Shown piece after piece: positions 55,166-56,502 of a stretch of 64,000 nucleotides of DNA (its first letter is position 1; each line of letters opens with the position of its first letter). Under the pieces are notes generated by a model. That model was not told the DNA's origin and did not search any database. It saw only the letters and a program-made list of their open reading frames with translations. The DNA is from Roseburia hominis (GTDB lineage Bacteria; Bacillota; Clostridia; Lachnospirales; Lachnospiraceae), in assembly GCF_021531695.1 (NCBI RefSeq), contig NZ_JADYUI010000004.1, positions 62,001 to 126,000 of the forward strand. Direction: 5' to 3'. Made by a program: the position numbers and the translations under genes.

Positions 55166-55831
55166 TTAAGACTCCTGCTCTTTCTTTTTGTCGTCCTCGG
55201 CTTTCTTTGCCTCCAGAATCGCCTGATTTAAGGAAAGCATCTTTGCATCCAGCATAGAAACAATCTCTGCACATTCCTTTAAATCCTTACTGATATACTC
55301 CGGTGCATTTCCCTCAAACTTATAATATATTTTATGTTCCAGACTTGCCCAGAAGTCCATGGCAATGGTCCGAACCTGAATTTCTACTTTTGTATTTACT
55401 ACCCGATCTGACAAAAAAATCGGAACCGTGACTAACATATGATAGCTCTTATACCCACTGTCTTTTGGCTTTTTTATGTAATCCTTTACCCATACAACGG
55501 TAAGGTCATTCTGCTTGCCAATCATTTCCGCCAGTCTGTAAATGTCTGACGTAAAAGAACATACCACTCTGATACCTGCAATATCATTGACATACTCCAT
55601 CATATTCGCAATGGTACTCTCATATCCATTCCGTTTTAACTTCTTTACAATACTTTCCGGTGTCTTGATCCGTGATTTAATGTATTCAATCGGATTATAC
55701 TGATGCACATGCTGAAACTCGTCATTTAAAATTTCAAGCTTTGTGCCAACCTCTTTCAATGCTGAATTATATAAGAGCATTGCCGTATTCCAACTCTCAA
55801 TCCCCTCACTCAGTTGTTCCGGTGTATCCAT
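55166..55831 (-). CDS. Small alarmone synthetase (RelQ-like)
   Basis: A 221-aa RelA/SpoT synthetase-domain protein without hydrolase or TGS parts, making (p)ppGpp. Motifs: EYIKSRIKTPESIVKKLKR, NDIAGIRVVCSFTSD, KDSGYKSYHMLV and EIQVRTIAMDFWASLEHKIYYK, the synthetase active-site series. The ATG at 55829-55831 has GGAGG 8 bp upstream and is the likely start; the frame continues 35 codons further into a MITE-like element and is rejected. The C-terminus is charged (AKKAEDDKKKEQES). Control is probably transcriptional. Confidence 0.93.
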   Translation of the reverse strand: MDTPEQLSEGIESWNTAMLLYNSALKEVGTKLEILNDEFQHVHQYNPIEYIKSRIKTPESIVKKLKRNGYESTIANMMEYVNDIAGIRVVCSFTSDIYRLAEMIGKQNDLTVVWVKDYIKKPKDSGYKSYHMLVTVPIFLSDRVVNTKVEIQVRTIAMDFWASLEHKIYYKFEGNAPEYISKDLKECAEIVSMLDAKMLSLNQAILEAKKAEDDKKKEQES

Positions 55832-55917
55832 ACCAATTCCTCCATTCCCGGTGGCTTCCCCTTTATCTATTATACCATATTTTGATATTTTTGTCTTGTT
55901 TTTATCGTATAGGCTTA

Positions 55918-56226
55918 GGGTGTCAAAAGGTCGCAAGAAAATTTAATCTGTCATATTGCACAAAATGAATTTGGTATTTGTGACTTATGAAGGATATTAG
56001 ATTTTCTTAATGTTCTGTAAACTATTCCAGCAACTCAGCAACAGGATGTTGATGAGAGCCCATGCTGAGCCAGGGATGGCAAATCGTGGGCGGTTGCGGT
56101 CGTGATTCAAATACCTGCCAGAACATTTAGAAAATGTTATATCCGTAATTCGGAACAAATGACAAATTACATCTTTGTGTAATATGACAAGCAAAAAATA
56201 GTTTGCGACCTTTTGGCACCCGAATC
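55918..56226. mobile_element. 309-bp MITE-like element with a 12-bp flanking repeat
   Basis: The ends GGGTGTCAAAAGGTCGCAA (55918-55936) and TTGCGACCTTTTGGCACCC (56203-56221) are 19-bp inverted repeats with one mismatch. CGTATAGGCTTA occurs at 55906-55917 and again at 56227-56238, just outside the element, as a direct repeat of 12 bp. Subterminal arms of about 65 bp also pair imperfectly. No protein is encoded. The right copy of the flanking repeat contains the stop codon of the next gene. The gap 55832-56235 holds nothing else. Confidence 0.75.
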
Positions 56227-56235
56227 CGTATAGGC

Positions 56236-56502
56236 TTACCCCTCCTCAATTACATGAATTTCCAGATAATCAAATTCGATTTCTTCCACAAAATTATCCT
56301 GATAAAATCGTGCTTTTGCATGTCTTTTAAACTCTTCTATCGTCTTATTTAGCCAGATTGGTTTTCCAAGATCAAATGCATAGCACACTTCATCCAGCGC
56401 ATGAAATACCTTATGTGTTCTGGTATCCCCGCTCTCATCACAAACTACCATATCCTTTATCATACGATTATCCTTAAATTCTTTCGCCCACAATCGGAAC
56501 AT
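56236..56502 (-). CDS. Conserved hypothetical protein (88 aa)
   Basis: A soluble 88-aa protein (MFRLWAKEFKDNRMIKDMVV, DESGDTRTHKVFHALDEVC, LDYLEIHVIEEG at the end). The pattern suggests a small alpha/beta fold, with a conserved-looking FDLGKPIWL. I do not recognise the family. AAAAATAA precedes the ATG at 56500-56502 with no strong ribosome site. The stop lies inside a 12-bp repeat that flanks the MITE-like element, so the element stands immediately downstream. It lies 48 bp after the SpoU-family gene and is probably cotranscribed. Confidence 0.75.
   Translation of the reverse strand: MFRLWAKEFKDNRMIKDMVVCDESGDTRTHKVFHALDEVCYAFDLGKPIWLNKTIEEFKRHAKARFYQDNFVEEIEFDYLEIHVIEEG

Follow-up and report, generated by a model that had tools for sequence, protein, structure and literature searches.

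A predicted CsrA-binding RNA as putative cargo of an IS1182-type MITE in Lachnospiraceae

Results

The window (the whole stretch of DNA analysed, 64,000 nucleotides of a Roseburia hominis contig) contains an inverted-repeat element located between two minus-strand genes. The features of the locus are listed below by window position.

55166-55831, minus strand: gene for a RelA/SpoT-region protein (PF04607, E 1.4e-32), on the left side and pointing away from the element
55906-55912: left target site duplication CGTATAG (7 bp), identical to 56227-56233
55913-55936, plus strand: left terminal inverted repeat GCTTAGGGTGTCAAAAGGTCGCAA, with ends common to other copies and genomes (GATTMGGGTGTCAAAAGG)
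55937-55984, plus strand: left arm of a long palindrome; its partner is the right arm (inverted repeats I1 and I3)
55985-56151, plus strand: TwoAYGGAY structured RNA (RF01731), full model 1-168, 114 bits, E 1.7e-21
56034-56056, plus strand: first hairpin, loop region ACAGGAUGU, GGA at 56044-56046, candidate CsrA site
56058-56091, plus strand: second hairpin, loop AGGGAU, GGA at 56074-56076, candidate CsrA site
56152-56202, plus strand: right arm of the palindrome, from inverted-repeat pairing and the fold
56203-56226, minus strand: right terminal inverted repeat TTGCGACCTTTTGGCACCCGAATC, with ends seen in other copies
56227-56233: right target site duplication CGTATAG (7 bp), equal to the left copy
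56234-56238: flank GCTTA, in which the adjacent gene has its stop codon; equal to the first five bases of the element
56236-56502, minus strand: intact gene of 88 aa, assigned to no Pfam family, with its stop codon just beyond the duplication

A preliminary description had placed here a mobile, self-folding element with inverted ends inside a 12-bp direct repeat, with the stop codon of an adjacent gene included in the right copy. The layout was confirmed: CGTATAGGCTTA is present in two direct copies (55906-55917 and 56227-56238) separated by 309 bp, the 19-bp inverted ends (55918-55936 and 56203-56221) are complementary at 18/19 positions, and the minus-strand gene at 56236-56502 ends within the right copy, its stop codon being TTA at 56236-56238. 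The fold energy of the element stretch was -130.4 kcal/mol (z -10.4), a value matched by 0 shuffles. The boundaries of the mobile element were refined by comparison with other copies to 55913-56226 (314 bp), an interval without a transposase ORF. Both flanking genes are antisense to the strand of the RNA.

The orthologous locus was compared in one congener (G001), where the neighbouring genes are adjacent and 77 bp lie between the aligned blocks, against 402 bp in the window. The element is absent there, so that a related genome has the site without it; the intergenic stretch of G001 is too diverged for the 7 bp present before insertion to be read.

Other copies with these ends were found, as expected of a mobile element, and are flanked by target duplications. 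In the 3.1-Mb genome to which the window belongs, the element ends gave 31 matches when 3 or fewer mismatches were allowed, and a reversed-pattern control gave 1; in genome G176 the corresponding numbers were 90 and 3. Copies of this type (type A) from the same genome were aligned, and their termini read GATTA, GATTC or GATGTT followed by GGG(T)GTCAAAAGG, symmetrically at both ends. The first bases of the window copy are GCTTA (one base off GATTA; the family form is GATTA/GATTC) and the last are GAATC. This comparison of termini sets the boundaries at 55913 and 56226, and with them a true duplication of 7 bp, CGTATAG. The identity of the right flank GCTTA with the left terminus of the element is due either to coincidence or to repair.

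Duplication lengths were scanned in 113 non-redundant paired elements (from the same genome, G176, other genomes of the family and the GTDB matches listed). A perfect 7-bp duplication was present in 41 of the 113 (permuted mean 1.3, maximum 5), and identity at 6 or more of the 7 positions in 63. Among the lengths of 3-6 and 8-12 bp, none had more than 6 perfect matches, and mean identity showed no similar increase; when the family boundaries were used, none of the 113 had a perfect duplication of 10-12 bp. The duplication of 12 bp was therefore not upheld, its last 5 bp being the terminus of the element. The preferred target resembles TTTTTAT[CTTATAG]GAAA and the sites are A+T-rich; the T-run is partly imposed, since orientation was chosen by T content, and GAAA is not imposed in this way.

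A scan of GTDB species with GATTMGGGTGTCAAAAGG returned at least 116 stretches, mostly from Lachnospiraceae and many at contig ends. Among the GTDB matches listed, paired ends enclosed 30-170 bp, in a few cases 230-255 bp, 290-315 bp and once 1283 bp (L237), and the class of 290-315 bp is the one that bears the RNA. Miniatures that have these ends but no core (38-160 bp; L026, L017, L216, L174 and others) often show perfect 7-bp duplications, and the tiniest amount to approximately two terminal repeats back to back. One copy (L032, G000:C92:137862-138175, in the same genome as the window) has inverted flanks, TGTATAG/CTATACA, and no direct repeat, which recalls the stem-loop replacement reported for IS1272; insertion by replacement of an inverted repeat was considered for the elements as a whole and set aside, as inverted flanks were not clearly above chance. 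A short palindrome, TATAGGAAATTYCWWGRAATTTCCTATA, adjoins several insertions in different genomes (L036, L008, L030, L237); it could represent either a favoured target or a repeat of terminator type.

Longer elements with the same ends carry transposase genes. L237 (1283 bp) has the same ends, a DDE transposase ORF lacking its N-terminus and the duplication CTATAAA, and L209 has one end and encodes the N-terminal portion of a transposase that is 75% identical. A transposase search over 397 genomes of the family added more full elements, in which both sub-types of ends are represented. Four have the same ends around an IS1182-like transposase ORF: L304 (1.86 kb, duplication ATGACAT), L302 (1.95 kb, ATATCAT), L298 (1.05 kb, TTAATAG) and L299 (1.84 kb). 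The last encodes an intact transposase of 549 aa between ends GATGTTGGGGTCAAAA and has no clear duplication. The proteins contain the Pfam domains DUF772 and DDE_Tnp_1_6. In NCBIfam, IS1182 was the best family by far for all of them; the intact proteins scored 125-149 bits, below the 270-bit cut-off (NF033551), and for this reason they are called IS1182-like. The transposase of G176 (L294) was examined as a partner and rejected: it is related, but has no clear ends of this type around it. Searches with the ends and with the protein revealed no autonomous copy, and the latter no relative of the transposase, in the genome of the window (a 97%-complete draft); a search of plasmids for the transposase gave 0 matches at E 1e-50.

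Since the same ends and 7-bp duplications are found on full-length insertion sequences that encode a transposase, the window element is classed as a non-autonomous MITE: it is short and without a transposase gene, it shares its terminal inverted repeats and a duplication of fixed length with other copies, and autonomous elements are present in related genomes. The window copy was apparently moved by a borrowed, IS1182-like transposase. The duplication of 7 bp and the ends of an IS1182-like insertion sequence also undo the argument of the preliminary description that an unusual duplication length pointed to a little-known family. What sets the element apart is its cargo: a structured RNA that is conserved and that the description had not recognised.

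The Rfam search of the element returned RF01731 as the sole family above threshold (114 bits against a gathering score of 43, positions 1-168). The authors who described TwoAYGGAY in 2010 regarded it as a probable RNA that is likely to be neither cis-regulatory nor a riboswitch (Weinberg et al., PMC2864571), although Rfam types it as Cis-reg. The genome of the window has 32 matches to RF01731; the 30 copies examined are all intergenic and have mixed orientation to the genes, while 10/11 copies of type A are antisense to the gene on the left (crude ORF calls). The distribution of the family is patchy, carriers having from 1 to at least 10 copies and up to dozens per genome. It is also dispersed, in several lower-scoring copies, in three complete or nearly complete genomes from other families of Clostridia (G421, G432, G752). 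In another copy in the genome of the window (L007, G000:C135:61944-62456), a second long palindrome is inserted in the right half of TwoAYGGAY, giving 518 bp in total.

Forty diverse cores were aligned. The share of helix cells that were paired was 93.0%; in shuffles it was 66.5% and in slid controls 39-46%. Two-sided changes were seen in 29/31 pairs. The stem of the first hairpin covaries in 7/8 pairs around a nearly invariant loop, C-A-(N)-GGA-N-G, in which C, A, G, A and G do not vary across the cores; in the second loop GA is invariant. In some copies from other genera the first loop has CGA instead of GGA. Of 70 cores, 50 had at least two GGA-loop hairpins on the sense strand and 3 had them on the antisense strand, and the frequency in shuffles was about 5%; in type B copies (see below) the second site counted is frequently a GGA further out, at core position 8, as the stem of the second hairpin is short. 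A consensus scan of the element for a sense-strand promoter found no convincing one.

The core is not confined to type A. A repeat of about 650-800 bp with ends AATTCTGATTTRTA (type B; for example L053, L054, L056, L058 and L060) has the same TwoAYGGAY core and accounts for 19/30 of the copies examined in the genome of the window. Core and inner arms are shared by the two types, the outer ends differ (AATTCTGATTT...), and type B copies have no clear target duplication. A further repeat, GACCGAGCTCTTTAGAGCGAGGGATGCTTCTTGTC..., adjoins several of them (L043, L056, L058, L060). In several genera (for example in G143, G241 and G131) the palindromes that contain the RNA measure about 250-340 bp and have different ends.

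CsrA binding had been predicted for TwoAYGGAY from motif matches (Gardner and Eldai, 2014; PMC4333381). In the window copy, two candidate GGA sites (56044 and 56074) stand in hairpin loops, as looked for in a CsrA-binding RNA, and a csrA gene is present in the same genome (G000:C22:70594-70746). The CsrA consensus site is RUACARGGAUGU, which the loop sites of TwoAYGGAY resemble in sequence.

The co-occurrence of RF01731 and csrA was determined in 250 genomes of the family (one per genus, with one exception), 39 of which carry the RNA. csrA was present in 38/39 carriers and in 90/211 non-carriers (p 9.7e-12, a guide only, as the genomes are related and such p-values overstate independence). In 391 genomes of the class, csrA was found in 31/36 carriers and 94/355 others, and outside the family of the window in 25/30 carriers and 86/345 others. 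Five carriers at the class level show no csrA, three of them in genomes with a completeness of 80-88%. Among carriers of the transposase there was no such bias (csrA in 4/9). RF01731 thus tracks csrA and the transposase does not, so that csrA goes with the RNA cargo rather than with the insertion sequence.

Discussion

The locus is best explained, with a probability of about 0.72 for the explanation as a whole, by a MITE that is mobilised by an IS1182-like transposase and carries a two-site CsrA-binding RNA as cargo. The transposase of full-length elements in related bacteria would recognise the terminal inverted repeats of the MITE and insert it into A+T-rich intergenic sites, leaving a target duplication of 7 bp. 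The interior, in effect one long palindrome topped by TwoAYGGAY, would present two GGA hairpin loops of the kind bound by CsrA. When transcribed, TwoAYGGAY most likely binds CsrA through these two loops, as their sequence predicts, and each transcribed copy would then hold CsrA at two sites. The dispersed copies might jointly form a CsrA sponge in trans, or provide local landing sites for CsrA in cis where they are inserted, with a possible benefit to element or host. A role in trans needs a promoter, and no persuasive sense promoter emerged from the consensus scan.

Most parts of this arrangement have known counterparts. The match to TwoAYGGAY (RF01731, PMC2864571) covers the whole model, has the two hairpins with AYGGAY loops and comes, like the family, from Clostridiales; that family entered the literature as an RNA candidate with no known function, whereas here it forms the interior of a transposable element. 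The literature found on the family contains no description of its mobility. The idea of CsrA binding is that of Gardner and Eldai (PMC4333381), reached by them from motif matches, to which the present analysis adds a test of co-occurrence with csrA in which the transposase served as control, a comparison of the two strands and the mobile context. The predicted CsrA binding at GGA sites displayed on hairpins also calls to mind sRNAs of other bacteria. CsrB/CsrC and RsmX/Y/Z, the products of regulated sRNA genes of Gammaproteobacteria, have numerous hairpin GGA sites each, with which they bind and sequester CsrA or RsmA. The present RNA differs from these in having two sites per copy, many dispersed copies and, by consensus scan, no recognised promoter.

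Among transposases, the IS1182 family is the nearest, with a DDE protein (DUF772 and DDE_Tnp_1_6) and with several insertions beside palindromes. The partner proteins nevertheless score below the NCBIfam cut-off, and their elements leave 7-bp duplications, whereas IS1272, of the IS1182 family, is reported to replace stem-loops and to leave none (PMC5678879). NEMIS/Correia and ERIC are bacterial MITEs, that is, short, non-autonomous, palindromic, intergenic repeats with target duplications and structured transcripts (PMC2229807). The window element shares their size, lack of autonomy, palindromic form, intergenic position and target duplications; unlike them, it carries a conserved, covarying RNA domain with loops of a protein-binding type, common to elements with unrelated ends. 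What is new, as judged from sequence comparison, is that a predicted CsrA-binding RNA spreads as the cargo of an IS1182-type MITE in Lachnospiraceae.

Of the other explanations weighed, an effect in cis, by which the hairpin would alter the stability or termination of a neighbouring transcript as in NEMIS and ERIC, with or without CsrA, is the strongest, although we consider it rather unlikely. All copies examined are intergenic, the window copy lies just past a stop codon, and RNAs of bacterial MITEs can act in this manner (PMC2229807). The mixed orientation to genes speaks against it, as does the antisense position of 10/11 type A copies relative to the left gene, from which it follows that read-through would often carry the strand without the GGA loops. 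It is improbable that the fold is a by-product of a palindrome serving DNA transposition (as a cruciform or hairpin) and that TwoAYGGAY has no function as RNA. The element is palindromic along its length, IS1272 is reported to target stem-loops (PMC5678879), and elements of 38-160 bp that lack the core but have these ends moved as well, with 7-bp duplications, so that the core is dispensable for movement. The GGA loops, however, are mainly on one strand, the loops stay invariant and covariation is seen in the stems, both between genera and between types of element whose ends are unrelated, and the presence of the RNA tracks csrA, which that of the transposase does not. Repair of palindromic DNA could pair changes in the arms, but would not preserve the letters of loops on one strand.

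That these are stably inherited sRNA genes multiplied by recombination without transposition is very improbable; Rfam files TwoAYGGAY as an RNA family and mobility is not mentioned in the literature found, but the target duplications, the ends in common with transposase-bearing elements, the empty orthologous site and the patchy presence in 1 to at least 10 copies contradict it for type A elements. An unusual mobile family making 12-bp duplications accords with the exact 12-bp match around the window copy and is now barely credible: it is refuted at the family level by the prominence of 7 bp and the lack of perfect 10-12 bp duplications in the 113 paired elements, and the GCTTA that ends the left repeat is the element's own terminus (GATTA/GATTC elsewhere). 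The reading of a MITE with an RNA cargo accounts for the observations better than any of these.

With this reading, an RNA family of unproven function gains a genomic identity as the cargo of mobile repeats, and the prediction of CsrA binding is strengthened by an independent test. Two questions become testable, namely whether Clostridia control CsrA with RNAs and whether a transposase can spread and multiply a regulatory RNA within a genome. A wider proposal, which we hold tentatively and with more doubt than confidence, is that the elements form a class of mobile DNA living off host CsrA, in which the RNA would be kept for spread or tolerance by elements with several kinds of ends, and which would rewire CsrA regulation in gut Clostridia. 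If so, CsrA might be titrated, or recruited to transcripts of the element, as examples of help to the element.

In one genome (L263, G043:C54:10476-12139), a TwoAYGGAY copy and a second csrA gene, the latter adjoining flagellin, are about 1.2 kb apart.
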